24,200 bases of DNA from a virus. A program made the position numbers and the translations under genes. Shown here piece after piece: positions 2,975 through 24,199 of the stretch. How positions within the stretch are numbered: position 1 is the first letter of the stretch; every line of letters starts with the position of its first letter. Under the pieces are notes generated by a model. It ran no database searches, was not told where the DNA came from, and saw nothing but the letters and a program-made list of their open reading frames with translations. The DNA lies in the IMG/VR virus record IMGVR_UViG_3300021091_000415, positions 1-24,200 of that record. One strand, 5' to 3'.

Positions 2975-3703
2975 ATGGGAGTCTTTGCTGGTCCAGATGT
3001 AAGAGAAGATGGACTCGTATTAGCACTTGATGCTGGGAACACAAAGTCTTATCCGGGTTCTGGAACCACTTGGACTGATTTGAGTGGTAGAGGAAATACT
3101 GGAACCTTAACGAATGGACCGACTTATAGTAGTGCGAATGGTGGGTCTATTGTTTTTGATGGGACTGATGATTTTTCAACTTCTGGAGCACTATCAGGTT
3201 CATTTACCTCATTCACTGTGATTATTTGGTTCTATCCAACATCAGTGACTAGTCATGAAAATCCAATAGATTGTAATTATTCTTATAATGGAACAACTGG
3301 TAATATTGGACCAAGATTAGAAATGAATAGTGCTGGAACACTTGATTGGTTATATTCAAATATAACTAATAGTAATAGTTCATATTATAATCATCCTGTT
3401 GTTTCAAGTGGATTAGCAGCAAACATCTGGCACTGTGCTGCGATTACTTATAATGGTGGAACAAATACATCAACCACTTATTACAATGGAAATGCAACTG
3501 GTTTATCAAGAACAACTATTGGATCTCCTACAGGATTTGTTGGTGTAATGAATAATGTAACAATTGGAAAGGGTTTTCATTTAGGTGGAGCAGAAAGAAT
3601 ATTTACAGGTAGAGTTTCAAACACCACAATATACAACAGAGCACTCACAGCATCAGAAATCCGACAAAACTTCAATGCACTCCGTTCAAGATTCGGTATC
3701 TGA
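2975..3703 (+). CDS. LamG-domain tail-fibre-like protein
   Basis: A 242-residue, single LamG-like domain protein and third member of the local family. It has DGLVLALDAGNTKSYPGSG at 12-30, TWTDLSGRGNTG, IVFDGTDDF, and the shared tail IYNRALTASEIRQNF ending in RSRFGI. In this copy Cys of LCLDAAN is replaced by Ala (LALDAGN). The middle is Ser/Thr/Asn-rich, as expected for an exposed beta-sandwich. Its stop TGA merges into the first promoter cassette of the window, so the LamG block probably ends transcriptionally here. Confidence 0.82.
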   Translation: MGVFAGPDVREDGLVLALDAGNTKSYPGSGTTWTDLSGRGNTGTLTNGPTYSSANGGSIVFDGTDDFSTSGALSGSFTSFTVIIWFYPTSVTSHENPIDCNYSYNGTTGNIGPRLEMNSAGTLDWLYSNITNSNSSYYNHPVVSSGLAANIWHCAAITYNGGTNTSTTYYNGNATGLSRTTIGSPTGFVGVMNNVTIGKGFHLGGAERIFTGRVSNTTIYNRALTASEIRQNFNALRSRFGI

Positions 3704-3759
3704 CCACTTCTCAAACCGGCACAAGACTGCACACAGTCTCACAGCATCTGTGCTATAAT
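3701..3759 (+). promoter_or_regulatory. promoter cassette (dyad plus -10), copy A
   Basis: TGACCA-N10-CGGCAC at 3701-3722 is the most divergent copy of the repeated dyad, but TATAAT at 3754-3759 lies exactly 31 bases after it, as in other copies. Two small hairpins fill the spacer (AGACT/AGTCT at 3724-3739 and CACAG/CTGTG at 3740-3752). ATG follows 23 bases after the -10 with no Shine-Dalgarno. It probably drives the small-gene operon beginning at 3783. Confidence 0.65.
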
Positions 3760-3782
3760 ACTTTCAGCATCACAAGACTCTT

Positions 3783-3998
3783 ATGAAACAATGGATTGAA
3801 GATTCTTTATGGTCTTGGAGAAATTGTATTGATTTTCGTCTTGACTATAACGACATTATTGATTACAAAGCATTCTGGGAAGAATTGAACCTAGGTTACA
3901 ATCAAATGAGAGATGAATACCTAATGGCACAACCAAACTTTGACCCTTATAATCTCTCAGGTAGAGACCCATACTATTCAGAGGTATTCAAAATATGA
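3783..3998 (+). CDS. small hypothetical protein
   Basis: A 71-residue Trp/Tyr/Asp-rich protein and first gene after a promoter cassette. The N-terminus is aromatic (MKQWIEDSLWSW). The leader lacks a Shine-Dalgarno. Its stop overlaps the next ATG by 4 bases. Function unknown. Confidence 0.65.
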   Translation: MKQWIEDSLWSWRNCIDFRLDYNDIIDYKAFWEELNLGYNQMRDEYLMAQPNFDPYNLSGRDPYYSEVFKI

Positions 3999-4201
3999 AC
4001 TTTCTATTGTCTTTATGGTACAGATACAAAGAATGGAGATACGAACGTAAATGTATTAAACATCTGGGTATGAAACCTCAAAAGATGTATGTGACCAAAG
4101 AACAGTATGATGCTCTTATGGAAGCAATCAACAAACCACCAGACCCTGAGAAAGTAAAAAGACTTAGGGAAATTATGAACAAAAAAGCACCATGGGAATG
4201 A
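3995..4201 (+). CDS. small basic hypothetical protein
   Basis: A 68-residue Lys/Arg-rich protein that starts at the ATGA junction with the preceding gene. A short hydrophobic N-terminus (MNFLLSLWYRYKEW) is followed by basic residues and a C-terminal helix-like stretch. It could be membrane-peripheral or nucleic-acid-binding, but no family is recognised. Confidence 0.6.
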   Translation: MNFLLSLWYRYKEWRYERKCIKHLGMKPQKMYVTKEQYDALMEAINKPPDPEKVKRLREIMNKKAPWE

Positions 4202-4208
4202 ATAAATA
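4201..4208 (+). promoter_or_regulatory. T4-type late promoter AATAAATA
   Basis: AATAAATA overlaps the upstream stop and lies 13 bases before the ATG at 4222, so a late transcript would start with a leader only a few bases long. It fits the NATAAATA consensus of T4-like late promoters and supports the choice of 4222 as the start of the downstream gene. Confidence 0.5.
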
Positions 4209-4221
4209 CTTTCAAAAAGTC

Positions 4222-4416
4222 ATGATTACCTTTAAGCAATTTTTAGAAGAAGCAAAGAAGAAGAAAGTTAAACCTCTGAGATCTAAAAAAGAAGTCATGA
4301 AAGCACTAAATGCCCAAGGTGGTATTGGTGGAAAGGCAGTAGAAAAGTATGACCGCCAAAACCCAGATCGTGGAGTGCGAACTTATAATCTCAATGACCC
4401 ATTGAATGACCGATAA
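4222..4416 (+). CDS. small basic protein with capsid-targeting-like N-terminus
   Basis: A 64-residue, very Lys-rich protein. The N-terminus MITFKQFLEEA strongly resembles the capsid-targeting sequence of T4 internal proteins (MKTYQEFIAEA), which is cut by the gp21 prohead protease after an (L/I)-x-E site. Here L-E-E followed by Ala would serve. I prefer ATG 4222 over in-frame ATGs at 4192 and 4198 because this motif then sits at the very N-terminus and a late promoter lies just upstream. It may therefore be a DNA-associated protein packaged inside the head; that is inference by analogy. The longer form of 74 residues remains possible. Confidence 0.6.
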   Translation: MITFKQFLEEAKKKKVKPLRSKKEVMKALNAQGGIGGKAVEKYDRQNPDRGVRTYNLNDPLNDR

Positions 4417-4582
4417 ATCTAAAATCTTCTACAACATTTGGTGTTGTTCTTATCAACGCAGAAGTTTGTATAAGGGAACACTAAGAGAACACAGAGAGCA
4501 CGAAACTGTGCGTATGTGTTTAGATATGAAAGATGTAAAATTCTACACATTTGATACAGAAAAACCAAAACATTTAAAATAA
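4406..4582 (+). CDS. small basic hypothetical protein
   Basis: A 58-residue reading frame beginning with ATGACCGATAAA, overlapping the upstream stop by 11 bases and ending one base into the next ATG. It is Arg/Lys/His-rich, with two adjacent Cys (WCCSYQRR) near residues 13-14. The tight junctions on both sides support it despite its small size. Function unknown. Confidence 0.6.
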   Translation: MTDKSKIFYNIWCCSYQRRSLYKGTLREHREHETVRMCLDMKDVKFYTFDTEKPKHLK

Positions 4583-4743
4583 TGAACTTCACACCTGAAC
4601 AATACAAACTCATTTACAATTCTGTGCGTCGTTATCAGATTGAAAAGACCATTCTGAATAGTGATGAGTACTACCAGTGCAATGAGATACTTGACGGACT
4701 CTTTGATTCCGTGTATACTCAAAAGGCAGAGCAACCAACCTAA
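4582..4743 (+). CDS. small hypothetical cyanophage-type protein
   Basis: A 53-residue protein starting MNFTPEQYKLIY, with its ATG sharing a base with the upstream TAA. It is predicted mostly helical and acidic. The N-terminus matches a recurrent small cyanophage protein type I recall, but no function is known. Confidence 0.6.
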   Translation: MNFTPEQYKLIYNSVRRYQIEKTILNSDEYYQCNEILDGLFDSVYTQKAEQPT

Positions 4744-4748
4744 ACATT

Positions 4749-5287: not shown

Positions 5288-5325
5288 ACAGTGCCTTAAT
5301 TGGTTCGCATCTTTAGGGTAGATTA

Positions 5326-5348: not shown

Positions 5349-5349
5349 G

Positions 5350-5357: not shown

Positions 5358-5384
5358 CTATTGCGAACCAATTTAAGAGTAGAA

Positions 5385-6248
5385 ATGGTAAACCCTAACA
5401 GGTTTTATACCTATGCGTATTTGCGTAAAGATAAGACACCCTATTACATAGGTAAAGGTAGTGGCAATAGAATTTATAGAAAAGAGGGTAGACCTTGTAA
5501 TAAACCAAAAGATAAATCAAGAGTAATATTTCTTAAACAAAATCTGACGGAGGAAGAAGCATTTAAGCACGAGAAGTATATGATTACTGTCTTTGGTAGA
5601 AAAGATTTGGGCACTGGTATTCTTCACAATAGAACTGATGGTGGTGAAGGAAGTAGTGGTGCTATAAGATCTTTAGAAATAAGAAATAAAATAAGTAAAA
5701 AATTAAAGGGTAAGATAGTGACAGAAGAAACTAGAAGAAAATTAAGTGAAAAATCAAAAGGTAAAAAGTTAAGTGAAAAGGCAAAAGAAAAAATAAGTAA
5801 ATTCCATAAAGGTAAAAAAATGACCAAAGAAACAAAGGAAAAAATGAGTTTATCGCAAAAAGGTAGAATAGTTAGTGAGGAAACTAGAGAAAAAATTAGT
5901 CAAGCAAACAAGGGTCGTTATGGGCATTTTACTGGGAAAAAATTTTCTAAAGAGCATAGAGATAAAATCTCAAAATCATTAACTGGAAAGAGATTGCCTA
6001 AAGAAACAAAAGAAAAAATAAGTAAATCTAAAAAAGGTATTACACCATGGAATAAAGGACTTATATTGGAGTCAAATTATGTTTATGAATATAAAAATCC
6101 AATTGGATACTCCATATCTACAAAAAATTTAAGTAATTTATGTAATCAAAATAACTTAAATGTAACTTGTATGCGAAGATTGATTACTGGAAAACAAAAA
6201 CAACATAAAGGATGGATTTTTGTGAAATTGAGTATAGTTGAAAAATGA
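5385..6248 (+). CDS. GIY-YIG homing endonuclease with NUMOD3 repeats and NUMOD1 domain
   Basis: A 287-residue protein. The GIY-YIG nuclease core is at about 7-90: FYTYAYL, PYYIGKG (19-25), Arg29, probable catalytic Glu63 in AFKHEKYMI, and LHNRTDGGEG (80-89). Residues about 95-215 hold about seven NUMOD3-type repeats of the form (S/T)xExxxKISxxxKGK. The C-terminus (about 230-280, YEYKNPIGYSISTKNLS...HKGWIF) is NUMOD1-like and DNA-binding. Such enzymes cut DNA lacking the gene and spread it by homing. ATG 5385 is chosen with AAGAG upstream; the frame also opens with TTG at 5361, but that lies inside the inverted repeat. Its stop overlaps the next start (ATGA), so the insertion is stitched into the operon. 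Confidence 0.92.
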   Translation: MVNPNRFYTYAYLRKDKTPYYIGKGSGNRIYRKEGRPCNKPKDKSRVIFLKQNLTEEEAFKHEKYMITVFGRKDLGTGILHNRTDGGEGSSGAIRSLEIRNKISKKLKGKIVTEETRRKLSEKSKGKKLSEKAKEKISKFHKGKKMTKETKEKMSLSQKGRIVSEETREKISQANKGRYGHFTGKKFSKEHRDKISKSLTGKRLPKETKEKISKSKKGITPWNKGLILESNYVYEYKNPIGYSISTKNLSNLCNQNNLNVTCMRRLITGKQKQHKGWIFVKLSIVEK

Positions 6249-6920: not shown

Positions 6921-7071
6921 TTCTCTAAGATTTACCAAGAATGAAGATGGATCCTTTACAGCAACTTGGGATCCACAAGACCCTAAATGGGGATTTCTTA
7001 ACAAGTTGACCAGTGCTGAGATTAGTGCTATGATGGGGCAAGCAATCAAGGACTTTACCAATGGACTTTGA
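6889..7071 (+). CDS. small hypothetical protein
   Basis: A 60-residue protein (MSVINPNPENDSLRF), overlapping the zinc-ribbon gene by 32 bases and the next gene by 11. It contains DGSFTATWDPQDPKWGFLN, a recurrent type of small cyanophage protein with a W-D-P beta hairpin followed by a helix. Function unknown. Confidence 0.58.
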   Translation: MSVINPNPENDSLRFTKNEDGSFTATWDPQDPKWGFLNKLTSAEISAMMGQAIKDFTNGL

Positions 7072-7798
7072 CTACAAGAAGTATTCTCTTGAAAATCTTG
7101 AGAAGTGGATGAGTGATGCCCTAGTATCTTCTGAGGCAACACCACAAGAAATCTATGATGTCATCAAAGGAGTTGTAGAAGAGGAGTATCATTACTTCAA
7201 GCATCATACTAGTCGTTGTTATGAATTGCTTGCTCTTCTAAATGGTAATGGTAAAGGACATCTGACTTGTGATAAGGATGACCCATCAGAAGAACGTAAA
7301 GGTGCATGGACTTCTTTCTGGGAAGAGAATTATTATCCAGAAGAATATAAAGAACCAAGTGTAGAAGACATTATGCCACCTTGGGGTCATAGTGATATGG
7401 AAGTACTTCGTTATACAGAAGAAGAATTGAACGCGATGTGTGATAAAGCAGAATCAGATCAAGAGAAAGAAAAGTGTCGTGAATACAATCTGCGTGAGGC
7501 AGAGTATTATGATAAGCGAGCACAACTTGATGCAACTTACGATGATATGATTGCTGCTGGATATACAATGACTGATGATGGTTTTTGGATTCCTCCTCAG
7601 AAAGAAGAAACAGTAAAGAAGTGGGTACTTCCAACTGATGTTGATGGTTTGACTGGTGATGTGATTGTAAATCTTCCTGATGATCTTTTGGAGGCGGCGA
7701 ATCTGAAAGAAGGTGACTATGTAGAATGGATTGATAATGGTGATGGATCTTATATTATGAAAAAAGCAACTCAACTACTTGGAATGGAGGAATGTTGA
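7061..7798 (+). CDS. hypothetical protein with AbrB-like C-terminal domain
   Basis: A 245-residue acidic protein. The N-terminal region (1-180) is helical and Glu/Asp/Tyr-rich, without a domain I recognise. The C-terminal part (about 186-236) reads like an AbrB/MazE swapped-hairpin domain: DVIVNLPDDLLEAANLKEGD, then YVEWIDNGDGSYIMKK. Such domains bind DNA as dimers in bacterial regulators and antitoxins. In this phage context it could be a regulator or a dimerisation module. Its TGA overlaps the next ATG (TGATG) just after a strong GGAGG. The domain call is by pattern and only moderately sure. Confidence 0.75.
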   Translation: MDFDYKKYSLENLEKWMSDALVSSEATPQEIYDVIKGVVEEEYHYFKHHTSRCYELLALLNGNGKGHLTCDKDDPSEERKGAWTSFWEENYYPEEYKEPSVEDIMPPWGHSDMEVLRYTEEELNAMCDKAESDQEKEKCREYNLREAEYYDKRAQLDATYDDMIAAGYTMTDDGFWIPPQKEETVKKWVLPTDVDGLTGDVIVNLPDDLLEAANLKEGDYVEWIDNGDGSYIMKKATQLLGMEEC

Positions 7799-8881: not shown

Positions 8882-8940
8882 GTGACAGTTTAAGAAGTGT
8901 CACATTGGGTCTCCTGAATTTCTGGGAGACCCTTTATAAT
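8882..8940 (+). promoter_or_regulatory. promoter cassette, copy B, with terminator hairpin
   Basis: GTGACA-N10-TGTCAC (8882-8903, perfect 6-bp arms), then an 8-bp hairpin GGGTCTCC/GGAGACCC ending near 8932, followed at once by TTTATAAT. The -10 is 8935-8940, 31 bases after the dyad. The hairpin plus T-run may terminate the CP12 transcript while the same T-run is part of the next -10. ATG 8966 follows 25 bases later without a Shine-Dalgarno. Confidence 0.75.
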
Positions 8941-8965: not shown

Positions 8966-9205
8966 ATGGAAACCGTTGAACTGATTAAATACCATTACGA
9001 CACTCAACCTGTCATGATAGAATTCACTGTTGAAGAGCATGATCTTCTAAATTCCATTCTGTGTCATGCTGTTGATGGAATGCATCTTGCCGTTCCCTGC
9101 ATTTACGATTTGCCTGAAGACTCTGAAGTCCGACAGCGTTATGAAATGCTTGAACACATGAAAAACCACTCTTATTCACTCTGGGCACAACGATTTGGTA
9201 ACTGA
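8966..9205 (+). CDS. hypothetical protein
   Basis: A 79-residue protein (METVELIKYHYDTQPVMIEF). It has a central EEHDLLNSILCHAVDGMH and a C-terminal helix. It is the first gene after cassette copy B; its leader is A/C-rich (CAACACCACCC). No family recognised. Confidence 0.65.
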   Translation: METVELIKYHYDTQPVMIEFTVEEHDLLNSILCHAVDGMHLAVPCIYDLPEDSEVRQRYEMLEHMKNHSYSLWAQRFGN

Positions 9206-9519: not shown

Positions 9520-9923
9520 ACAAACAAAACGGTTTTATTGACCCTGCAGTTGCTGTTGTTGGTCTTGCTGGTGTAATTGTGATTGCTGGTCTTGCTTTTG
9601 GTCTCCCTCAGTATGGTGTGTGGACTAAAACTCTCAGCGGTAAAGCACAACTCCAAGAAGCAGAATATACTCGTCAGGTAGCAGTTCTGGAGGCACAAGC
9701 AAAAAAAGATAGTGCTCAGCAACTTGCTGATGCTGAAATCATTCGTGCTACTGGTGTTGCTAAGGCAAACCAAATTATTGGTGATTCATTGAAGGATAAT
9801 CGTGAATATCTTCAATATCTTTACATCACTGGTCTGGAAGATGGTAGCAAGAATGGTAATGTGACCATTTATGTTCCCACTGAAGGTGGTATGCCCGTGC
9901 CAACACTTCAGATGAATAAGTGA
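9516..9923 (+). CDS. Band-7/SPFH-like membrane protein
   Basis: A 135-residue protein with a membrane segment at about 9-31, then GLPQYGVWTKTLSGKA and a long Ala/Glu/Gln-rich helix (about 42-90: YTRQVAVLEAQAKKDSAQQL, ATGVAKANQIIG), ending in a beta segment NVTIYVPTEGG. This matches the short cyanophage version of the C-terminal half of SPFH/Band-7 (prohibitin-like) proteins, which form membrane microdomain scaffolds. The full SPFH beta domain is missing. Role in infection unknown. Its stop TGA lies inside the next cassette. Confidence 0.75.
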   Translation: MNKQNGFIDPAVAVVGLAGVIVIAGLAFGLPQYGVWTKTLSGKAQLQEAEYTRQVAVLEAQAKKDSAQQLADAEIIRATGVAKANQIIGDSLKDNREYLQYLYITGLEDGSKNGNVTIYVPTEGGMPVPTLQMNK

Positions 9924-9978
9924 CACTCTGACAACTGGCACACTATGGCACTCAGAACCCTCTGGGTGCCTTTATAAT
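9920..9978 (+). promoter_or_regulatory. promoter cassette, copy C, with terminator hairpin
   Basis: GTGACA-N10-TGGCAC at 9920-9941. A 10-bp stem GGCACTCAGA/TCTGGGTGCC (9947-9970, loop ACCC, one G-U pair) runs straight into TTTATAAT; -10 is 9973-9978, 31 bases after the dyad. ATG 10000 is 21 bases on, after CAACCAACTC with no Shine-Dalgarno. The clearest copy of a combined terminator and promoter. Confidence 0.8.
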
Positions 9979-9999: not shown

Positions 10000-10461
10000 A
10001 TGAGCACCACCTTCGCTGACTACGCCGCCCAAGCAGAGGCACGGGAAAGCATCTCCGCTGCGGTTCTGAAGCATACTCTGTCACTTTGTGAAGCACTGCG
10101 CCAGAATTACATTGATTACAGCATCAAATCTCACCAGCGCCAATTGACAGAGTATGGTGGTGATCGTTGTGATGTTTCTTATGCACCTTATCATCAGGAG
10201 TGTATTGAAAAACTGAAACAAGGTATCAGTGATTATGAGTTTACCATTGAGAGTGGTCGTAAGTATCACAAAATCATTATGAATGTCAATGGTTCCCGCA
10301 GTGTTCATGCTTTTGTAGATAAGAAAACTGGAGGTCTATATAAGTCTGCATCATGGAAGGCACCTGCAAAAGGAGAACGCTATAATCTTCTGATCATTGA
10401 ACAGAGGGAGTGGTTGTTTGAAAATGCAGACTGGGCTTCTGGATATTTGTACGCTAAGTAA
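10000..10461 (+). CDS. hypothetical protein (conserved phage type)
   Basis: A 153-residue protein. The first 50 residues are helical (TTFADYAAQAEARESISAA); the second half is beta-rich, with RKYHKIIMNVNG, SRSVHAFVDKKTGGLYKSAS and WKAPAKGERYNLLI. The VDKKTGxxYKxASWKAPAKG signature recurs in many tailed-phage proteins of unknown function. The first about 100 bases are visibly richer in G/C than the rest of the gene. The start is fixed by the cassette upstream. Confidence 0.72.
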   Translation: MSTTFADYAAQAEARESISAAVLKHTLSLCEALRQNYIDYSIKSHQRQLTEYGGDRCDVSYAPYHQECIEKLKQGISDYEFTIESGRKYHKIIMNVNGSRSVHAFVDKKTGGLYKSASWKAPAKGERYNLLIIEQREWLFENADWASGYLYAK

Positions 10462-10977: not shown

Positions 10978-11381
10978 ATAGATTTCTACCACGACATAAG
11001 ATTGAGTTGGAAATTGTTCATCGTGGATTGAAACGTGAATGTGTTTATGGTTACTGTTCAGTTCAAGATTGTGATTGGAGACCTAGAGATTTTTTAATTG
11101 AAATTCAATCTAATCTTTCTCAAAAAGATTATATTCAAACTTTATTCCATGAATTATATCATTGTTATCAACATATTAAAGGTGATTTGAGGGATGTAAG
11201 AGGAATTCGTTGTTGGAAAGGTATGAAGTGGGATGATGATGATTATGATAAAATGCCATGGGAAATAGAAGCACGGGAACAGGAAGAAACATTATACCTT
11301 GAGTACCTGAAAGAAAAGCAGGATGTACCAGTTCCACAAGTGTCACAGATCTTCCCCAACCGCCTGATGCAGGCAGTATAA
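10902..11381 (+). CDS. zinc metallopeptidase-like protein (HELYH)
   Basis: A 159-residue protein if started at ATG 10902 (TTG 10884 would add 6 residues). HELYH at 83-87 is an HExxH zinc site, followed by PWEIEAREQE at 119-128, whose Glu could be the third ligand, as in SprT-like and related minimal metallopeptidases. The preceding YIQTLFHELYHCYQHIKG fits the active-site helix. Four Cys occur in the N-terminal half. No Shine-Dalgarno precedes either start, and the overlapping hydrophobic frame at 10837 suggests the 5' end may be altered. Substrate unknown. Confidence 0.68.
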   Translation: MQSFLYHHGYGYRKRVCEDVACWFLNRFLPRHKIELEIVHRGLKRECVYGYCSVQDCDWRPRDFLIEIQSNLSQKDYIQTLFHELYHCYQHIKGDLRDVRGIRCWKGMKWDDDDYDKMPWEIEAREQEETLYLEYLKEKQDVPVPQVSQIFPNRLMQAV

Positions 11382-11406
11382 TTACAGAGTAATTAAGGGA
11401 ACCACC

Positions 11407-11859
11407 ATGGTCACCGACACTACACAAGACAAGCAGATCCGTCGATCCATTGTCAAATCTGTTGAAGACATGGATCTGCGACTATCGAAGATTAATTTTA
11501 TGAAAAAACTTCTTCTTCTTGCTACAATTTTTCTCTCTTCCCCTGCATTTGCACAAGAGACTCAAGCATATCGCCCATTCCGATATGAAACTGCTTGTGG
11601 AGTTGAATCTCAAGGTCAATTGTTTGAGGATACTTGTGTTGTGATTGAGACTCGTGAAAAGAACGGTGCTCTTCGCACTCGCAATATTTTCTCTAATCGT
11701 TTTGCGTTGACAATTAAAGGACGATTTGATAGAGAGAAAGGGTATATGACTTGGGATAGTCATAACAAATACGAATATAAGTGGGAGTACAAACCTGCTG
11801 GCACTGGGTGGACTTATGTAATGCCTGGTGTTCTTGTTGAAAATGTATCATGGGATTAA
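11407..11859 (+). CDS. secreted hypothetical protein with extended N-terminus
   Basis: The frame gives 150 residues from ATG 11407, which has a good AGGGA upstream. Residues 32-50 are a textbook signal peptide (MKKLLLLATIFLSSPAFAQ) beginning at an internal ATG 11500, giving a 119-residue secreted protein. The first 31 residues are hydrophilic (DTTQDKQIRRSIVKSVEDMD) and would normally block export. Either two products are made or the short form is the real gene preceded by a fused small protein. The mature part is beta-rich, with Cys at 65 and 77 of the long form. Function unknown. Confidence 0.6.
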   Translation: MVTDTTQDKQIRRSIVKSVEDMDLRLSKINFMKKLLLLATIFLSSPAFAQETQAYRPFRYETACGVESQGQLFEDTCVVIETREKNGALRTRNIFSNRFALTIKGRFDREKGYMTWDSHNKYEYKWEYKPAGTGWTYVMPGVLVENVSWD

Positions 11860-12479: not shown

Positions 12480-13175
12480 ATGTCTTCAATTGGCAAGATT
12501 TATTGTGCCCATTGTATTTCTACAGGGAAGAAATACGTAGGTCAAACTATAAAAAATAATATTAATTTAAGAATCAATGAGCACTTTGCAGATTCCATTA
12601 AATATCAACATAAATTTGCAAATGCTCTTAAAAAATACGGAAAAAATGGATTTATTTGGGGAATAATTGAAGAATGTGAACTGTCAATATTAGATGATAG
12701 AGAGATATTTTGGATATCACAATATAATACATTTGACAAAGGATATAATAGTACAAAAGGTGGAAATCAATCTAAAGAATATTATGTAAAAGATTATTTG
12801 GTAGAAACTCCAACTGGAAATAAAAATCAAATTAAAAATCTATCTCAATATTGTAGAGATAATGATCTTAATATAGGTAATCTTCATGAAACTCTTTATG
12901 GAAAAAGAATTCAACATAAAGGATATAAACTTATACCAAGAAGTGATGAAGAAATTAAAAGATATGAAAATGAAAGAAAAGTAAGAGAAGATGCAAGTAG
13001 AAAAGGTCTTAAAGGGGAAAGAAATGGGAGAGCGATCCTTAACTGGAATAAAGTTGAACAAATACGTCAAATGCACTCTTCTAAAAAATATAAAAATCAA
13101 GAAATAGCAAATACATTTGGTATTAAACTTGGAACACTTGAAAAGATAGTATCAAATAAACTATGGACAGTTTAA
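12480..13175 (+). CDS. GIY-YIG homing endonuclease with HTH C-terminus
   Basis: A 231-residue protein. The nuclease core is at 5-95: GKIY (5-8), KKYVGQT (17-23), Arg31 and NEH (33-35), KKYGKNGFIWGII (51-63), probable catalytic Glu75 in LDDREIFWI, and GYNSTKGG (88-95). A NUMOD1-like DNA-binding segment spans about 107-153 (YLVETPTGNK...HKGYKLI). A helix-turn-helix closes the protein (about 187-229, VEQIRQMHSSKKYKNQEIAN). It is a different subfamily from endonuclease 1 (no NUMOD3 repeats) but shares its upstream module. The codons are much more A/T-rich than in flanking genes, consistent with horizontal entry. Confidence 0.92.
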   Translation: MSSIGKIYCAHCISTGKKYVGQTIKNNINLRINEHFADSIKYQHKFANALKKYGKNGFIWGIIEECELSILDDREIFWISQYNTFDKGYNSTKGGNQSKEYYVKDYLVETPTGNKNQIKNLSQYCRDNDLNIGNLHETLYGKRIQHKGYKLIPRSDEEIKRYENERKVREDASRKGLKGERNGRAILNWNKVEQIRQMHSSKKYKNQEIANTFGIKLGTLEKIVSNKLWTV

Positions 13176-14132: not shown

Positions 14133-14365
14133 AAAGAAAAAAGGGATTTCTTTACTACATTTACTACGCTCTTGGAGAGAAATCTCATCCACATTGCAAT
14201 AAAACGGCAGATAGAGTTGCTCTCATTCGTTTGATTATTACATTACAAATTTTAGTTACAAATTTTTTCATCATTGGGGGAGTAATTATAAATGTTGCTT
14301 CCATCAAAAGACATTGGAACAATAACACACCATCAGTGATTCAAGTGCAGTGTGGCAATTCTTGA
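14129..14365 (+). CDS. small membrane protein
   Basis: A 78-residue protein with a basic N-terminus (MKRKKGFLYYIYYALGEKSH), then a hydrophobic segment over about 31-58 (LIRLIITLQILVTNFFIIGG). One membrane span is predicted. Cassette copy D overlaps its last codons. Function unknown. Confidence 0.62.
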   Translation: MKRKKGFLYYIYYALGEKSHPHCNKTADRVALIRLIITLQILVTNFFIIGGVIINVASIKRHWNNNTPSVIQVQCGNS

Positions 14366-14410
14366 ACTGTCACAGCATATATCACACTAGACTGATTTCC
14401 CAGTTATACT
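14352..14410 (+). promoter_or_regulatory. promoter cassette, copy D
   Basis: GTGGCA-N10-TGTCAC (14352-14373), with TATACT at 14405-14410, 31 bases later; ATG 14435 is 24 bases on. No strong hairpin occurs in the spacer. The first arm lies inside the upstream coding sequence. Confidence 0.65.
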
Positions 14411-14434: not shown

Positions 14435-14620
14435 ATGACTGATGCAGACAAAGTATTCGCCCTTACCGAACTTATGGGTGACGTACTTCATGTTCTTGAA
14501 ATGAAAAAGTATGACATCGAAGATCCTACTCTTTCTCATGAATGTGAAATAGACGCAGATAAGTTTCATCAAAGGATGATGGATGTTCTTTATAATGAAA
14601 AACAGAAAGATGAGTGTTGA
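14435..14620 (+). CDS. small acidic hypothetical protein
   Basis: A 61-residue acidic helical protein (MTDADKVFALTELMGDVLHV), ending EKQKDEC. Followed by a 45-base gap with a direct repeat AAACTCTGA and no clear promoter. Function unknown. Confidence 0.6.
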   Translation: MTDADKVFALTELMGDVLHVLEMKKYDIEDPTLSHECEIDADKFHQRMMDVLYNEKQKDEC

Positions 14621-15706: not shown

Positions 15707-15765
15707 GTGACACTTGTAGAACTGTCACAAGACCCCTCCACAATCCCCCACAACACCCTTATAAT
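15707..15765 (+). promoter_or_regulatory. promoter cassette, copy E (before restriction-modification genes)
   Basis: GTGACA-N10-TGTCAC (15707-15728, perfect arms), with TATAAT at 15760-15765, 31 bases later; ATG 15789 is 23 bases on. The spacer is C-rich without a hairpin, so this copy looks like a promoter only. It would drive the endonuclease and methyltransferase together. Confidence 0.72.
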
Positions 15766-15788: not shown

Positions 15789-16415
15789 ATGAAAATTCAA
15801 ACGATCACTGCCGATGTTTACGGAGAGTCGAGTGTTTTTGAAGTGATTCAATATGACCATACTGACATTCCAAATGTCAAGAAAGCATTTGATTCCTGGA
15901 CTGATTTGAAAAACTTTTCTAACATTCTTCATGGACGGTCACCAAATCTTCCTGAATGTATTTCAGAAACTTGTCTTTGTTTGGTTACAAATTGTGTCCG
16001 CTTCTATAAGTCAAAGAAGTTGAAAAGTTCATCCTTCGATTGTTTTGATCTTGTATCTCAAAAAGCAATTCAAGTGAAAGGAAGTTCTGTTGAGGATGAT
16101 CTGACTTCTTTTGGTCCAAAGTCAAAATGGGATACTTTTTATTTTCTTGATTTTTATAATGATGGTAACATTGATGGTACTTTCAACATTTATGAAATTC
16201 CAAATCATTTGATTTATGATTGCAATGTAAAAAATGGTCGTACATTGCGCGAATCTCAAGAACTTGGTTATCGTCCTCGCATTCATTTGAAAAGTCAAGT
16301 GATTGTTCCCAATGGAGTTGAAGCATTTGAAATTGACGAGGATAGTGATATAATGGAAGAAATTATTCGTCCTTCTGGACTGTCCGCCACAGAAAAAGGA
16401 ATTAAACTATGGTAA
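15789..16415 (+). CDS. Bsp6I-like type II restriction endonuclease
   Basis: A 208-residue protein resembling the Bsp6I restriction endonuclease family: SVFEVIQYDHTDIPNVKKAF near 15-34, SSSFDCFDL at 80-88, AIQVKGSSVEDDLTSFGPKS at 93-112, and WDTFYFLDFYNDG. Asp84/Asp87 with Gln95-Val-Lys97 form a PD-(D/E)xK-type active site. The Bsp6I prototype cuts GCNGC; the specificity here is inferred from family only. It precedes and overlaps a C5-methyltransferase by 7 bases, the normal partner. In a phage it could cut competing phages or host DNA. Length and motifs look intact. Confidence 0.82.
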   Translation: MKIQTITADVYGESSVFEVIQYDHTDIPNVKKAFDSWTDLKNFSNILHGRSPNLPECISETCLCLVTNCVRFYKSKKLKSSSFDCFDLVSQKAIQVKGSSVEDDLTSFGPKSKWDTFYFLDFYNDGNIDGTFNIYEIPNHLIYDCNVKNGRTLRESQELGYRPRIHLKSQVIVPNGVEAFEIDEDSDIMEEIIRPSGLSATEKGIKLW

Positions 16416-17353
16416 ATCGCACAATAGATCTGTTTGCTGGAATTGGAGGTATTCGTCTTGGATTTGAATCTGCTGGTTTTGAGTCTGTATTTTCGAATGA
16501 CTTTGAACCACAGTGTAAAATCACTTATGATCTAAATTTTGAAACCTCCAAACTTCACATTCAAGATATTCGTGAGATTGAACCAAATACATTGCCTGAC
16601 TTTGATTTTCTTCTTGCAGGATTTCCTTGTCAGGCATTTTCAATTGCTGGTTATCAACAGGGATTTGATGATGAGAAGAATCGAGGTAATTTATTCTTTT
16701 ATATTGCAGAAATTCTCAAACAAAGACAACCATCCGGATTTCTTCTTGAGAATGTAAAAAATCTAGTTTCTCATGATTCTGGAAGAACATTTCAAGTAAT
16801 TCAAAGTATTCTTTCTGAACTAGATTATCATATCAAGTTTCAAGTTTTGAATACGATGAATTATGGTAATGTACCGCAAAATCGTGAGAGGATTTATATT
16901 GTTGGGTTTAAATCTTTTTCTCATTGTATGAGATTTTCTTTTCCAGATTCAATTCCATTGACAAAAACAGTTTCAGATCTTCTAGACTCAGGACCAGTTG
17001 ATTCTAAGTATTATTATGATGGAAAACCATTGTATGATCGAATTAAAGATGATGTGACTGATTCTTCAAAGGTTTATCAATGGCGAAGGCAATATGTAAG
17101 AGAAAACAAAAAGAATGTTTGTCCAACTCTTACTGCAAACATGGGAACAGGAGGACATAATGTACCGATTATTAAAGATTCTCATGGAATTCGCAAACTA
17201 ACTCCGAGAGAATGTCTTAGTCTTCAAGGATTTCCTGATTCTTATGTTTTACCTTCAATTTCTGATGGAGCATTGTATAAGCAAGCAGGTAACTCAGTCA
17301 GTGTACCAGTCATTGAACGCATCGCTCAGCAGATTCGTATGACAGTTTCTTAA
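16409..17353 (+). CDS. DNA (cytosine-5) methyltransferase
   Basis: A 314-residue protein with all main C5-MTase motifs in order: I (DLFAGIGGIRLGFESAGF, 7-24), IV with catalytic PC at 73-74 (GFPCQAFSIAG), VI (ENVKNL, 114-119), VIII (QNRERIYIVGF, 157-167), a target-recognition region about 180-255, IX (LTPRECLSLQGFP, 264-276) and X (AGNSVSVPV, 293-301). It methylates cytosine in DNA using S-adenosylmethionine and should protect the phage from the coupled endonuclease. It starts 7 bases inside the endonuclease gene, with AAGGA upstream, so the two are translationally coupled. No controller gene is seen. Its last codons (MTVS-stop) lie in the next cassette. Confidence 0.95.
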   Translation: MVNRTIDLFAGIGGIRLGFESAGFESVFSNDFEPQCKITYDLNFETSKLHIQDIREIEPNTLPDFDFLLAGFPCQAFSIAGYQQGFDDEKNRGNLFFYIAEILKQRQPSGFLLENVKNLVSHDSGRTFQVIQSILSELDYHIKFQVLNTMNYGNVPQNRERIYIVGFKSFSHCMRFSFPDSIPLTKTVSDLLDSGPVDSKYYYDGKPLYDRIKDDVTDSSKVYQWRRQYVRENKKNVCPTLTANMGTGGHNVPIIKDSHGIRKLTPRECLSLQGFPDSYVLPSISDGALYKQAGNSVSVPVIERIAQQIRMTVS

Positions 17354-17396
17354 CTGTCCACTCCCATACCCCATACGCCGTTTGTGTGTGTATGAT
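17339..17396 (+). promoter_or_regulatory. promoter cassette, copy F
   Basis: ATGACA-N10-TGTCCA (17339-17360) overlaps the methyltransferase stop; TATGAT is at 17391-17396, 30 bases later. A 5-bp hairpin CATAC/GTATG (17372-17394) reaches into the -10. ATG 17423 is 26 bases on. Confidence 0.6.
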
Positions 17397-17422: not shown

Positions 17423-17698
17423 ATGTCTTTTCACTCCTTTCAACTTTCCTCAGTTCGCATTGAAGATTCTCAGACTGATGATGTTTTTTATGTTTATCCT
17501 GACAATTTGCAGAAATCTAAATCTCTCCCTGAAACCTTGGATGATGCTTATGGTGATGGATTTCTGACTATTTCTTTGTGGGATGACAAGTTTGATACTT
17601 GGTATCTAAACATTGCAAATGAAGAGTATACAGGTTCTCTTCAAAAACTTGAGTCTATTCTTTACAACTGGGCACAATCTGAAGGTTTTCATTACTGA
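17423..17698 (+). CDS. hypothetical protein
   Basis: A 91-residue acidic protein (MSFHSFQLSSVRIEDSQTDD), beta-rich with FLTISLWDDKFDTWYLNIAN in the middle and a helical C-terminus. No Shine-Dalgarno. The next ATG is 2 bases after its stop. Function unknown. Confidence 0.65.
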   Translation: MSFHSFQLSSVRIEDSQTDDVFYVYPDNLQKSKSLPETLDDAYGDGFLTISLWDDKFDTWYLNIANEEYTGSLQKLESILYNWAQSEGFHY

Positions 17699-19898: not shown

Positions 19899-19958
19899 AT
19901 GACAGTTCGATAAGTGGCACAAGGGGTCTTGAGTACCTATGAGATCCAGTGGTACATT
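19899..19958 (+). promoter_or_regulatory. promoter cassette, copy G
   Basis: ATGACA-N10-TGGCAC (19899-19920), then AAGGGG and a weak hairpin GTACC/GGTAC; TACATT at 19953-19958 lies 32 bases after the dyad. ATG 19987 is 28 bases on, preceded by CCCCAACC. Confidence 0.6.
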
Positions 19959-19986: not shown

Positions 19987-20169
19987 ATGTCCATCTACAC
20001 TGAGAACGGTTACGAATCCCGCACCGAATACCTCAACGAACTGCGTGAGGAGTACGGTGATCTGGTTGACATCCTTATCGGTGTGCTACCATCGTCAGAA
20101 GATTTCGACGGTCTTGTAATCGCTCTGGAAGACGCATTGGAATCGGGAGAGTACGAAGACCTCCTGTGA
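19987..20169 (+). CDS. small acidic hypothetical protein
   Basis: A 60-residue protein (MSIYTENGYESRTEYLNELR), acidic and helical, with GLVIALEDALESGEYEDLL at the end. The C/G-rich start resembles other cassette-driven genes. The TGA stop is the TGA of the next GTGACA dyad. Function unknown. Confidence 0.65.
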   Translation: MSIYTENGYESRTEYLNELREEYGDLVDILIGVLPSSEDFDGLVIALEDALESGEYEDLL

Positions 20170-20222
20170 CACTTTGAACACTGTCCACGGGGCACACAGG
20201 AGTCTCTCCGGTGCCCTATACT
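20166..20222 (+). promoter_or_regulatory. promoter cassette, copy H, with hairpin
   Basis: GTGACA-N10-TGTCCA (20166-20187); hairpin GGGCAC/GTGCCC (20190-20195/20211-20216) runs directly into TATACT (20217-20222), 29 bases after the dyad. ATG 20249 is 26 bases on. Confidence 0.72.
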
Positions 20223-20248: not shown

Positions 20249-20716
20249 ATGGGTACTCGCTCTCGCATTGGTTACGAACTTCCTGATCATTCAGTGGTTT
20301 CTGTCTACTGCCACTGGGATGGTTATGTAGAACACAATGGTAAGATTCTGGTAGAGCATTATCAGAATCGTGATGATGTTGTGGATCTCATTGATGGCGG
20401 TGGTATTTCATCACTGCGAACCCGTGGCACTTGGGATCATTCTTCCCCTCTTCGTGATGAGAATGGAGAGTACATTTCAGATGTTGCAGGTTATCTGAAG
20501 TATGAGAATGATCGTGATCCTCAACCGCTTTATTATACTGAGCGGGGAGAAGAACTGGACATTGCACATACTTCATTTGATGAGTTTGTGAGTGGAAATC
20601 TTGGTGGTGAAGAGTATGCGTACCTGTTCGATCTGAATGGTAACTGGAAAGCATACAAGATGAACTGGGATGGTCCTGTAGAGCGTGTTGAGATTCCTAA
20701 CTATGTGACAGCGTAG
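20249..20716 (+). CDS. conserved phage hypothetical protein (MGTRSRIG type)
   Basis: A 155-residue protein starting MGTRSRIGYELPDHSVVSVY, followed by CHWDGYVEHNGKILVEHYQN. This N-terminal block is widespread in tailed-phage and plasmid proteins of unknown function. The rest is acidic, with EYAYLFDLNGNWKAYKM near the C-terminus. Its final VTA-stop lies in the next dyad (GTGACAGCGTAG). Regulatory context: between cassettes H and I, so it is probably a single-gene transcript. Confidence 0.8.
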   Translation: MGTRSRIGYELPDHSVVSVYCHWDGYVEHNGKILVEHYQNRDDVVDLIDGGGISSLRTRGTWDHSSPLRDENGEYISDVAGYLKYENDRDPQPLYYTERGEELDIAHTSFDEFVSGNLGGEEYAYLFDLNGNWKAYKMNWDGPVERVEIPNYVTA

Positions 20717-20762
20717 AAACTGGCACAAGGGCACTGGAAGCGCCTCTGGTGCCCCTTATACT
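20705..20762 (+). promoter_or_regulatory. promoter cassette, copy I, with hairpin
   Basis: GTGACA-N10-TGGCAC (20705-20726); hairpin GGGCAC/GTGCCC (20729-20734/20749-20754), then CTTATACT with -10 at 20757-20762, 30 bases after the dyad. ATG 20791 is 28 bases on after CAACCAACCACACACC. Confidence 0.75.
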
Positions 20763-20790: not shown

Positions 20791-20919
20791 ATGGAAGACA
20801 CCCTTTGGTCTGAGATTATGGAAGCACCCGGTGAGATCTGGGATCTTCCGGAACTGCAGGATGAAGATGAGAATGAGCAGACTTGGAATGAGTTTGTCAA
20901 CAGCAATGTGACACTCTAA
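20791..20919 (+). CDS. small acidic protein
   Basis: A 42-residue, very acidic protein (MEDTLWSEIMEAPGEIWDLP) with 12 or more Glu/Asp. It is framed by two cassettes, and its last codons (NVTL-stop) form the GTGACA of the next one. Function unknown. Confidence 0.58.
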   Translation: MEDTLWSEIMEAPGEIWDLPELQDEDENEQTWNEFVNSNVTL

Positions 20920-20966
20920 CAACTGGCACAAGGGGGGTTTACATTCCCCCCAATCCGTTCTACATT
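20908..20966 (+). promoter_or_regulatory. promoter cassette, copy J, with hairpin
   Basis: GTGACA-N10-TGGCAC (20908-20929); hairpin GGGGGG/CCCCCC (20932-20937/20946-20951); TACATT at 20961-20966, 31 bases after the dyad. ATG 20989 is 22 bases on. Confidence 0.7.
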
Positions 20967-20988: not shown

Positions 20989-21150
20989 ATGACTGACACT
21001 CTTTCACGAAACATCTACCGCGCTTTGTTCAGTGAAGAGCAGTGGGATCTGATCTATGCTATGGTAGGTCATGCTCTGGATGATGATGACTTTGATCCAG
21101 AGGATGTCTACACTATTCGCAACAAGATTCACGCTATCTTTGGAGACTGA
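20989..21150 (+). CDS. small acidic helical protein
   Basis: A 53-residue protein (MTDTLSRNIYRALFSEEQWD) with HALDDDDFDPEDVYTIRNKI. Its TGA overlaps the next ATG by one base. It heads a run of eight overlapping mini-genes to 22286. Confidence 0.62.
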   Translation: MTDTLSRNIYRALFSEEQWDLIYAMVGHALDDDDFDPEDVYTIRNKIHAIFGD

Positions 21151-21717: not shown

Positions 21718-21842
21718 CACCTGACACTCTGAACTTTACTGGCGACTCTGTGACAGTTCTCGGACTGGTCGGAGTCATCTCCACTGGCATCATCCTGGTG
21801 CTATGCTTCACTCGTTACTTCAATTCACCCTTGAGGAAATGA
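21714..21842 (+). CDS. small single-span membrane protein
   Basis: A 42-residue protein with a polar start (MTPDTLNFTGDS), a hydrophobic span at about 13-33 (TVLGLVGVISTGIILVLCF), and a basic end (RKstop), predicted N-out/C-in. ATGA junctions on both sides. Function unknown. Confidence 0.55.
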   Translation: MTPDTLNFTGDSVTVLGLVGVISTGIILVLCFTRYFNSPLRK

Positions 21843-22143: not shown

Positions 22144-22286
22144 CCAAACAACTTCTGATCTCTCAACTTCGCCAAGGCAAAAATGGGAACGACATCCTTC
22201 ACATTCTTGATGTACTCTGTAATGGGATGGACAGTAGTGAATCTAGTCAAGATAATGTCCCAACACTAGACGAGATTCAATTCTAA
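22140..22286 (+). CDS. small hypothetical protein
   Basis: A 48-residue protein (MTKQLLISQLRQGKNGNDIL), ending TLDEIQF. Short helical start, acidic end. The last codons carry a near-match (CTAGACGAG) of the palindromic repeat that follows. Function unknown. Confidence 0.55.
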   Translation: MTKQLLISQLRQGKNGNDILHILDVLCNGMDSSESSQDNVPTLDEIQF

Positions 22287-22374
22287 ACTCGACGAGGTGT
22301 GACAGATGTTCTAGTGGCACATTCACTCTCGACGAGATCAGCAAGATCAACTAGATTATGCACATCTCGACGAG
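22266..22374 (+). repeat. CTCGACGAG palindrome cluster 2 (three copies plus one near-match)
   Basis: Exact copies at 22288-22296, 22328-22336 and 22366-22374; the last is part of a 13-bp palindrome ATCTCGACGAGAT. A one-mismatch copy CTAGACGAG is at 22266-22274. Two copies bracket the dyad of cassette K and one lies between its -10 and the ATG. Confidence 0.88.
22299..22357 (+). promoter_or_regulatory. promoter cassette, copy K, with CTCGACGAG sites
   Basis: GTGACA-N10-TGGCAC (22299-22320); TAGATT at 22352-22357, exactly 31 bases later; ATG 22381 is 23 bases on. The spacer has no GC hairpin; instead a CTCGACGAG site sits in it. This suggests an extra layer of control. Confidence 0.6.
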
Positions 22375-22380
22375 ATCATC

Positions 22381-22569
22381 ATGCAAACTGCATCTGTTAC
22401 ACCAATCTCGAACAAGGCAAAGAACAGATTCTCGAACATCATGAATCGTAACGAGATCTGCATCATTGAGCAACACAAAGGTAACAAAGTGTTTCTCACA
22501 TCCATGAACAAGCGTTACCATTTCTGGGTGACCATTGACAACGACCCAGACTGGATGGTATCATTCTAG
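22381..22569 (+). CDS. small conserved phage-type protein
   Basis: A 62-residue protein starting MQTASVTPISNKAKNRFSNI, then IIEQHKGNKVFLTSMNKRYH and FWVTIDNDPDW. The HKGNKVFL...NxRYHFWV core is familiar from cyanophage proteins of unknown function. It is beta-rich and basic. Single gene between cassette K and the long leader region. Confidence 0.68.
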   Translation: MQTASVTPISNKAKNRFSNIMNRNEICIIEQHKGNKVFLTSMNKRYHFWVTIDNDPDWMVSF

Positions 22570-22661
22570 AACAAAGACGGAAGGGGTTTGCCGTCGCTTT
22601 CTTGTTAAAGTTACCCAGCGCGAAAGAGAACCGATAATTATAGGGTCTAGGTGAGGTGGTT

Positions 22662-22697
22662 AAGGAGATGGGGTGGTGCCTGTCTCCTTTTTTCTTT
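22662..22697 (+). terminator. rho-independent terminator
   Basis: AAGGAGA (22662-22668) pairs with TCTCCTT (22683-22689), followed by a run of six T and CTTT. This is the strongest intrinsic terminator in the window and ends transcription from the left. Confidence 0.8.
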
Positions 22698-22702
22698 ATA
22701 CG

Positions 22703-22728
22703 GTATAACGATACTGTTATACTATAAT
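22703..22728 (+). promoter_or_regulatory. promoter with GTATAAC-N6-GTTATAC operator-like repeat
   Basis: GTATAAC (22703-22709) and GTTATAC (22716-22722) form a perfect 7-bp inverted repeat directly before TATAAT (22723-22728). The repeat covers the -35 region, as expected for a repressor site. The related repeat at 8410 has spacing 7 instead of 6. A transcript would begin near 22735 and give a leader of about 195 bases. Confidence 0.6.
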
Positions 22729-22749
22729 AACACACTCCCATCCATCCTA

Positions 22750-22829
22750 GCACACTGCTCTGGGTTCTGGCAGGTACGGGTTCCCCTGATGCCCGATACC
22801 TATAAGTGCAAAAAACCCGTGCAGTGTGC
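22750..22829 (+). promoter_or_regulatory. leader RNA with mutually exclusive stems
   Basis: Fold 1: GCACACTGC (22750-22758) pairs with GCAGTGTGC (22821-22829) and ACGGGTT (22776-22782) with AACCCGT (22814-22820), the two 3' arms adjoining. Fold 2: GGTACGGG (22773-22780) pairs with CCCGATACC (22792-22800) with one bulged A. The ACGGG segment is shared, so both inner stems cannot form together. This resembles an attenuator or riboswitch, but no known class was recognised and the pairing was done by hand. Confidence 0.5.
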
Positions 22830-22847
22830 CAATCGAATCAGTGGCAC
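22826..22847 (+). promoter_or_regulatory. isolated dyad copy GTGCCA-N10-TGGCAC
   Basis: A perfect-arm version of the cassette dyad, overlapping the 3' arm of the leader stem. At the expected distance only a poor -10 (CATCAT, about 22880-22885) is found, so it may regulate the upstream promoter or be a decayed cassette. Confidence 0.5.
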
Positions 22848-22929
22848 AAGGTCGCTGGTGTGGGTCGGTTCTGGCATGGCATCATTCACACATCGGCGCA
22901 CCACTGACGCCGACCACCACCCAAGACAA

Positions 22930-23406
22930 ATGACCGACCTTCAGACTCTCCTGATTAACATCGAAGAACTGAAAGTTCAGTTCGCAAAGAGTTTTGAAAC
23001 CATCGAAACTGCTGTGTCATTGTTGCAAACTCAGCAACAACAACAGCAGGTCAATGTAGATCAAACTGCTCTTAAGTTTGTTGACTTTTTCGCACAAGAA
23101 CTGGAAAACAACATCTCTGGAGGCAAATTGTTCGCTGCTCGATTGAACTTCATTCGGCAGAATTACGACAAAATGTATTATCAATCCTTGAATGACATTT
23201 ACAAGGAATTGATTAACAAACCCGCACCAGGTTGGGCAAAGCGTCGTCAACTTTTGCTGACTGCATCTGCAATCTGGCGTTATACTTTCCACGGTCGTTC
23301 TTATGATCTTAAGTGTCAAATTGAAGCGGCGATGGAGTGTAGCGATTGTGGGCAATTTGTGCGCCCAATGGTAGAAAGAATGATCCAGGAAAAACTCTGG
23401 GTGTGA
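22930..23406 (+). CDS. hypothetical protein
   Basis: A 158-residue protein from ATG 22930 (MTDLQTLLINIEELKVQFAK). It has an N-terminal coiled coil (1-38) ending in a run of six Gln, then a helical body with FVDFFAQELEN, FAARLNFIRQNYDKMYYQSL and a C-terminal MECSDCGQFVRPMVERMIQE, whose CxxC may bind a metal. Longer in-frame forms are rejected (see leader region). Function unknown. Its TGA is that of the next GTGACA. Confidence 0.7.
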   Translation: MTDLQTLLINIEELKVQFAKSFETIETAVSLLQTQQQQQQVNVDQTALKFVDFFAQELENNISGGKLFAARLNFIRQNYDKMYYQSLNDIYKELINKPAPGWAKRRQLLLTASAIWRYTFHGRSYDLKCQIEAAMECSDCGQFVRPMVERMIQEKLWV

Positions 23407-23462
23407 CAGTTTGTTAAGATGCACACTGGGGGGATCACTTCCCCCTCTGTGCCCTGTAGGAT
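23403..23462 (+). promoter_or_regulatory. promoter cassette, copy L, with hairpin
   Basis: GTGACA-N10-ATGCAC (23403-23424); hairpin GGGGGG/CCCCC (23428-23445), extendable by GCACA/TGTGC; TAGGAT at 23457-23462, 32 bases after the dyad. ATG 23487 is 24 bases on, after CACCACACCACCCG and no Shine-Dalgarno. Confidence 0.68.
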
Positions 23463-23486
23463 AACCTCAGTTCACCACACCACCCG

Positions 23487-24167
23487 ATGAACCGCGTTAC
23501 CATCACCCGAATCTCTGGCAACAGCAAGACCGGACCGATCACCACCACACGCACCGATCGCGCAACTTGCCCCACTACCTGCCCGTTTTATGATGCAGGT
23601 TGCTACGCTACTCTGGGGCGTGAGCGTATGCAATGGGACCGCCTTAATCGTCAAGAAACAGGTGTAAGTTGGGATGAGTTTATCTCTCAGATCCGCCGTA
23701 TTGTGCCCAATGGTATGCTGTGGCGGCACAATACTGCAGGCGATCTGCCACACAATGATGGCAGCATTGATTATCTGAAACTCAAACAGTTGATCAATGC
23801 AAACAAGGGTAAGAAGGGTTTCACCTATTCTCACCACGTTCTGACAGATCACAACGTGATTGCACTACAGAACGCGAACGGGTTAGGTTTCACTGTAAAC
23901 GCATCTTGTGAGTCGGTTGATGAAGCGGACCGCGTGATGAGTGAGCATAACATTCCTGCCGTTGCTGTTGTTCATTCTGAAGAAAAGCGCCGATTCTTCA
24001 CAACAACCAACGGTCGCAAGGTTGTTACTTGCCCTGCAGCATTGCACCCTGGCAAAGTAACCTGTGCCACTTGTGGTTTGTGTCAACAATCCGACCGTGA
24101 GTTTGTGATAGCGTTTCCTGCACACGGCGTGGCAAAGAATAAAGTTAATGCCATTGTGACAGTCTGA
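23487..24167 (+). CDS. Cys-rich DUF7227-like phage protein
   Basis: A 226-residue protein starting MNRVTITRISGNSKTGPITT. CPTTCPFYDAGCYA (28-41, Cys28/32/39) near the N-terminus and TCPAALHPGKVTCATCGLC (181-199, Cys182/193/196/199) near the C-terminus could form one metal or iron-sulfur site. The middle resembles an alpha/beta barrel segment (FTYSHHVLTDH, NIPAVAVVHSEEKRRFFTT). I recall such proteins in many tailed phages as DUF7227, without known function. The gene is visibly more G/C-rich than the left half of the window. It ends VTV-stop inside the last dyad. Confidence 0.78.
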   Translation: MNRVTITRISGNSKTGPITTTRTDRATCPTTCPFYDAGCYATLGRERMQWDRLNRQETGVSWDEFISQIRRIVPNGMLWRHNTAGDLPHNDGSIDYLKLKQLINANKGKKGFTYSHHVLTDHNVIALQNANGLGFTVNASCESVDEADRVMSEHNIPAVAVVHSEEKRRFFTTTNGRKVVTCPAALHPGKVTCATCGLCQQSDREFVIAFPAHGVAKNKVNAIVTV

Positions 24168-24199
24168 CAACCTGCACACTGGGGGGATCTGATCCCCCC
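24156..24199 (+). promoter_or_regulatory. promoter cassette, copy M, cut by window end
   Basis: GTGACA-N10-CTGCAC (24156-24177), then a hairpin GGGGGGATC/GATCCCCCC (24181-24199). By the rule of the other copies a -10 is expected about 31 bases after the dyad, near 24209, beyond the window. Confidence 0.65.

Follow-up and report, generated by a model that had tools for sequence, protein, structure and literature searches.

A dyad-containing promoter cassette at gene junctions of T4-like cyanophages

What does a short symmetric sequence contribute when it recurs at one gene junction after another? The question is raised by a 24.2-kb fragment of a T4-like freshwater cyanophage (IMG/VR record IMGVR_UViG_3300021091_000415, positions 1 to 24,200; hereafter the window), whose closest annotated relative is the Synechococcus phage S-SRM01, with partial synteny and pieces of about 80% identity. 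The window carries copies of a 22-nt dyad upstream of TATAAT-like boxes, an arrangement termed here the cassette. With a probability of about two in three, we regard the cassettes as activator-dependent early promoters of T4-like cyanophages, in which a dimeric factor on the dyad would do the work of a missing -35 box; this reading is drawn from sequence patterns.

Anatomy of the dyad and the cassette

All 14 dyad coordinates given in the initial annotation of the window were confirmed. The arms had been described as GTGACA and TGNCAC separated by 10 bases; the dyad stands, but the half-site is conserved over nine bases (GTGACASTY), so that the gap between the arms is 4 bases, and the refined motif reads GTGACASTY-N4-RASTGKCAC. 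The pattern as first described, with up to two mismatches allowed, gave 27 strand matches in the window compared with 7.2 ± 3.1 in shuffled sequences, and 0 of 100 shuffles reached 27. Leave-one-out matrix scores of the window sites ranged from 13.9 to 29.0 bits. In a full matrix scan, the best position outside the list scored 15.7 bits (21750) and the next 6.1; the match at 21750-21771 lies inside a conserved coding stretch shared with S-SRM01 (87734), has no -10 box, and is a false positive worth leaving out of any matrix. Missing from the earlier description were a 15th site (11325), a hairpin in the spacer between dyad and -10, and the fact that the cassette is common to all T4-like phages of Synechococcus and Prochlorococcus examined.

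Twelve of the -10 boxes in the window had been considered readable. Nine sites do match TATAAT at five or six of the six positions, but five others (19899, 20908, 22299, 22826 and 23403, with TACATT, TAGATT, CATCAT or TAGGAT) match at only four, and the window end truncates the cassette at 24156. The base seven nt past the -10, where +1 is expected, is a purine at 14 of 14 testable sites, and the -35 zone matches TTGACA at 4 of 6 positions at most. The sites lie at gene junctions, as had been stated, and the upstream open reading frame (ORF) mostly stops inside or beside the dyad (stops at 3703, 8881, 9923, 14365, 15705, 17353, 20169, 20716, 20919, 23406 and 24167).

The anatomy was then defined over ten complete T4-like cyanophage genomes together with the window (11 genomes). 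Dyads of at least 15 bits number 4-24 per genome, compared with about 0.2-1 in shuffled genomes. They are followed, in this order, by 29-31 nt of spacer, TATAAT, a purine at +1 and, about 24 nt further, a start codon. At distances of 29, 30 and 31 nt from the dyad, boxes resembling the -10 (at least 5 of 6 matches) number 13, 50 and 25, respectively, compared with about 2 at other offsets. A purine occupies the exact +1 at 114 of 123 sites, with T at +2 at 82 of them; this is as expected of a real start and puts the dyad centre at -53.5 or -54.5, in agreement with the position near -54 proposed at the outset. An ORF begins 8-50 nt past the -10 (mostly 21-26) at 105 of 131 sites, whereas the same is true of 28% of other TATAAT sequences.

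Information content is about 20 bits in the dyad and no more than about 0.4 bit per position in the -35 zone. The claim that no -35 box is present holds for the window but fails for some relatives: TTGACA with at least five of six matches at 16-18 nt spacing occurs at 17 of 123 sites over the 11 genomes (1.6 expected), and at none in the window. The dyad does lie upstream, where an activator site replacing the -35 had been postulated; the -35 itself is poor rather than always absent.

Many spacers can fold. Their minimum free energy (MFE) is below -6 at 53% of the sites, compared with 19% of shuffled spacers, stems of at least 7 bp number 22 against 0.6 in shuffled spacers, and T's often precede the -10 at the hairpin. 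Since, in addition, the upstream gene often stops in or near the dyad, many cassettes have the appearance of a combined terminator and promoter. The overlap with the upstream stop, and the second hairpin following in half of the cases, would also suit a dyad that is itself an RNA hairpin at which the transcript of the preceding gene is terminated or processed at its 3' end. This candidate was rejected and its probability is negligible: at nearly all nine positions, Watson-Crick pairs between the arms do not exceed the expectation for independence, so that compensatory change is lacking, while no T run follows the dyad and the spacing to the -10 is fixed. A comparison of the dyad element with Rfam gave no family match. 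The lack of covariation points to a dimer site on duplex DNA, each half-site being read separately, rather than to RNA or cruciform pairing.

The composite form calls to mind the PeSLs, the early promoter plus stem-loop cassettes of T4 (Arbiol 2010, Comeau 2014, as cited in PMC4503421). These reportedly are likewise short cassettes of a terminator and a promoter, set between the small accessory genes of T4-like phages, and their joining of a stem-loop terminator to a promoter has its counterpart here in the spacer energies. The cassette described here differs in its upstream 22-bp dyad, its poor -35 and its presence on conserved core genes; the strong host-like -35 of the PeSL early promoters is lacking in most cassettes, at least five TTGACA matches being confined to the 17 sites mentioned. 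Few PeSLs are reported in the ORFan region of S-PM2 (PMC4503421); several dyad sites lie there. It is conceivable, although very improbable, that the cassette is a PeSL-like mobile element kept mainly for shuffling accessory genes by homologous recombination, with the dyad as a part of the repeat. In favour are the terminator-promoter anatomy, the location of the sites (one or two stretches of a genome, among small accessory genes) and the fact that the preceding gene has its stop codon within the element; against it, spacers with little sequence in common keep a length of 30 ± 1, needless for recombination, and cassettes stand at fixed places on core genes (peptidase, cobS). Recombination and regulation are compatible with each other.

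Distribution among phages and the search in hosts

The dyad is present in 10 of 10 T4-like Synechococcus and Prochlorococcus phage genomes scanned in full, clearly also in P-HM2 and P-SSM4, and as two weaker sites in S-CAM3. Scans of Ma-LMM01, Syn5 and T4 found none, and HTVC008M (a T4-like pelagiphage), S-TIM5, P-SS2, P-SSP7 and KVP40 had no dyad or chance-level matches only; the reversed pattern, applied as a control to the same first set of phage genomes, gave zero matches. The check proposed initially, whether the dyad is enriched at corresponding junctions of relatives, had a positive outcome both at junctions shared with S-SRM01 and at the gene encoding DUF7717, whose junction carries the dyad in 7 of 11 genomes. 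With the DUF7717 gene of the window (10000, phrog_818) as query, 80 IMG/VR relatives gave 65 unique upstream regions, 50 of which contain the dyad, compared with 3 of 75 control windows. It lies there mostly 57-60 nt ahead of the ATG, and the spacer sequences differ widely. A different arrangement was seen in freshwater viral contigs, where 58-bp tandem units of up to about six copies contain the dyad and TTGACA without a clear -10 per unit (IMGVR 3300031784_003461, 1110-2862; IMGVR 3300008113_001711, 12-926).

The initial annotation had allowed for either an activator of the phage's own or one captured from the host. A borrowed site of a host regulator would agree with the need for early genes to be read by host machinery, and a few such palindromes do exist in large cyanobacterial genomes. 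However, a site with at most one mismatch was found in only 28 of 194 cyanobacterial genomes, typically once per genome, and in none of those of 3.0 Mb or less, which were equated with picocyanobacterial hosts through size alone. Among 85,000 species genomes there were 73 exact matches, near chance by estimate, none of them in a contig named Synechococcus, Prochlorococcus or Cyanobium. Furthermore, phages of the same hosts that are not T4-like (S-TIM5, P-SS2, P-SSP7, Syn5) lack the dyad. A host regulon was rejected on account of these few scattered sites without repeated occurrence in cyanobacterial genomes, and capture of a host regulator is improbable, since no picocyanobacterial-sized genome sampled has the site. 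The other half of the original alternative, an element of the phage lineage, is retained: the cassette appears to be shared by T4-like cyanophages and not to be of host origin. As a separate observation, the Pyrinomonadaceae metagenome-assembled genome SSF56 contains six palindromes of the GTGACA..TGTCAC type, which suggests that another regulator or repeat there has a similar site.

Genes served, proposed mode of action and known systems

Genes were partitioned by the presence of a dyad within 150 nt of the gene start. In addition to DUF7717, the dyad precedes the genes for the peptidase (8 of 10 genomes), cobS (5 of 10) and DUF6267 (5 of 10); the dyads near the peptidase and cobS in P-HM2 are at 125043 and 127351. 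It was found in 0 of 10 genomes at gp55, gp43, nrdA, nrdB, hli, gp41, uvsX, gp46 and phoH, and likewise at gp23, gp17, gp20 and gp18, and in 1 and 2 of 10 at psbA and gp32, respectively. Dyad-free TTGACA-N17-TATAAT promoters precede gp55, gp32 and hli. The dyad set consists mainly of accessory genes along with the four named above; genes for replication, photosynthesis or the capsid are hardly ever part of it. In published work, capsid genes are classed as late, and photosynthesis genes and nucleotide genes as middle (PMC5082946, PMC7238727), and early cyanophage transcripts peak at 0.5 h, middle ones later (PMC5082946). Because the dyad is nearly absent from genes known as middle or late, it would mark, by exclusion, an early class, to which the partition points.

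Two side observations concern psbA of S-SRM01. A dyad-like sequence (207134-207155) lies upstream of the gene, with TTGACA...TATGAT shifted downstream by about 11 bp, or one turn, relative to the standard cassette. The gene itself (207378-209585) is interrupted by a putative site-specific endonuclease gene (207752-208447).

In the mechanism that we propose, the cassette would be a transcription start for a host sigma-70-type RNA polymerase, with a good -10, a purine at +1 and a nearly uninformative -35. Two subunits of one protein would bind duplex DNA, one at each GTGNCAnTT half-site, the dimer covering -65 to -44, next to the -35 position on its upstream side, and once bound it would place or hold the polymerase on the weak promoter in lieu of a -35. 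In about half of the cassettes, the spacer hairpin would end the upstream transcript and the same short sequence would start the next. The factor would probably be of phage origin, and possibly injected if the served genes are immediate-early. The earlier reading of a promoter cassette with a dimeric factor is kept here; activation, as opposed to repression, is what we infer. Symmetric dyads are typical operators, and a phage repressor that closes the early genes once middle transcription starts would suit the successive early and middle peaks. We nevertheless consider such an operator unlikely, as the dyad is placed ahead of the core promoter, which in most cassettes has no -35 and would hence be weak unaided, whereas a repressed strong early promoter should have retained it.

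Several points weigh against an activator. The -10 is poor at several window sites, and the 17 sites with a good -35 may have no need of activation. A phage activator of immediate-early genes would have to be injected, or else be produced in a wave of expression that precedes them. Finally, among the phage genes of the genomes examined, none that encodes a convincing DNA-binding domain follows the distribution of the dyad, and Pfam and PHROG scans of the conserved unknown proteins found no helix-turn-helix or ribbon-helix-helix.

Two candidates for the reader were rejected. An AbrB/MazE-like protein (window 7061-7798; phrog_661) occurs in 9 of 10 dyad phages and 0 of 3 controls, as well as in P-SSM4 and S-CAM3, but was not found in the dyad-rich P-HM2 and S-CRM01 and has a weak match in the dyad-free S-TIM5. 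The DNA-contacting residues of AbrB are arginines, and the corresponding positions here seem acidic or neutral. This apparent replacement makes phrog_661 an unlikely reader, as does its mismatched distribution. The swapped-hairpin domain of this type sits on a longer protein both in the window gene and in S-SRM01 (70029-70727 and 93311-93487), and its relatives in most T4-like cyanophages are small, acidic and without obvious DNA-contact arginines; the protein may act against host regulators of the AbrB type instead of binding DNA. DUF7717 is conserved and dyad-driven, but its confident model (predicted local distance difference test score, pLDDT, 89) matches no PDB fold.

Among known systems, T4 middle promoters (MotA box and -10, with MotA/AsiA) similarly keep the -10 and replace the -35 by a phage-activator site. 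The MotA box, however, is short, asymmetric and at -30, whereas the 22-bp dyad is centred at -54 and has another sequence. Promoters of the CRP/NtcA type (GTA-N8-TAC in cyanobacteria) share the symmetric dimer site, the sigma-70 -10 and the weak -35, but their sites are centred at -41.5 or -61.5, and half-site and spacing differ.

The element had been called new-looking, which is doubtful. The abstract of Doron et al. 2016 (ISME J 10:1437; Syn9, P-TIM40) reportedly announced a novel early-gene regulatory element, different from that of T4, along with host-like middle promoters, conserved among T4-like cyanophages. The phage group is the same, the two promoter classes found here fit that description closely, and the reported conservation has its counterpart in the range of genomes carrying the dyad. 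Thus the dyad class has probably been reported already as a cyanophage early-gene element, of which the window provides a further member. Results obtained in the present analysis are the symmetry of the dyad, the independence of its arms, the terminator hairpin and the lack of sites in genomes of host size.

T4-like cyanophages rank with the most abundant viruses in the sea. According to PMC5780444, which cites Doron et al. 2016 and Thompson et al. 2016, they are without T4-like middle promoters and motA and/or asiA. The dyad marks a family of switches shared by these phages, at which a dimeric protein probably helps host RNA polymerase to start early accessory genes, and the combined terminator-promoter form suggests how small unknown genes join genomes and are at once expressed on time. 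We put forward, tentatively, that a shared early regulon is run through the dyad by an undescribed dimeric activator that is phage-encoded, perhaps injected, and not related to MotA, and that terminator-promoter cassettes admit accessory genes to this regulon as modules. The precise dyad, its scoring matrix, its phase to the start site, and the lists of promoters with and without it permit a direct hunt for the reader protein.

Cassettes of the window and neighbouring genes

All window cassettes are on the plus strand. The first (3701-3759) has the weakest dyad (3701-3722), followed by TATAAT at 3754-3759 and a start at 3783. The cassette at 8882-8940 combines a near-perfect dyad (8882-8903) with a spacer hairpin of an 8-bp stem, TATAAT at 8935-8940 and a start at 8966, and S-SRM01 has a dyad at the same junction (72007). 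At 9920-9978, the dyad (9920-9941), a hairpin and TATAAT (9973-9978) precede the DUF7717 gene (10000-10461). The cassette overlooked earlier (11325-11382; dyad 11325-11346) has a perfect TATAAT at 11377-11382 and a start at 11407, and that at 14352-14410 (dyad 14352-14373) has TATACT at 14405-14410 and a start at 14435.

Another near-perfect dyad (15707-15728) belongs to the cassette at 15707-15765, with TATAAT at 15760-15765. It precedes a gene for a Bsp6I-like type II restriction endonuclease (15789; Pfam E = 8e-19) adjoining a DNA methyltransferase gene, and the two (15789-17353) form an apparently complete phage-carried restriction-modification pair, which would be under a single dyad cassette. 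The methyltransferase stop (17353) lies within the next dyad (17339-17360), whose cassette (17339-17396) has TATGAT at 17391-17396 and a start at 17423.

Further downstream, the cassette at 19899-19958 (dyad 19899-19920) has the weak -10 TACATT at 19953-19958 and a start at 19987, and that at 20166-20222 (dyad 20166-20187) a hairpin, TATACT at 20217-20222 and a start at 20249. The cassette at 20705-20762 (dyad 20705-20726; TATACT 20757-20762; start 20791) shares its junction with S-SRM01 (87187). At 20908-20966, the dyad (20908-20929) is followed by a GGGGGG...CCCCCC spacer hairpin, the weak -10 TACATT (20961-20966) and a start at 20989. The dyad at 22299-22320 has a weak -10, TAGATT, at 22352-22357, which ends the feature at 22299-22357 (start 22381; S-SRM01 junction 88176), and that at 22826-22847 (feature 22826-22885) only the doubtful CATCAT, with an S-SRM01 counterpart at 88697. 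The cassette at 23403-23462 (dyad 23403-23424) contains a GGGGGG...CCCCC hairpin, the weak -10 TAGGAT (23457-23462) and a start at 23487, again at a junction shared with S-SRM01 (89266), and beyond the last dyad (24156-24177) the remainder of the cassette lies past the window end. Among the accessory genes of the window, two are homing-endonuclease-like by their PHROG matches (5361-6248 and 12480-13175), the second being of the GIY-YIG type.

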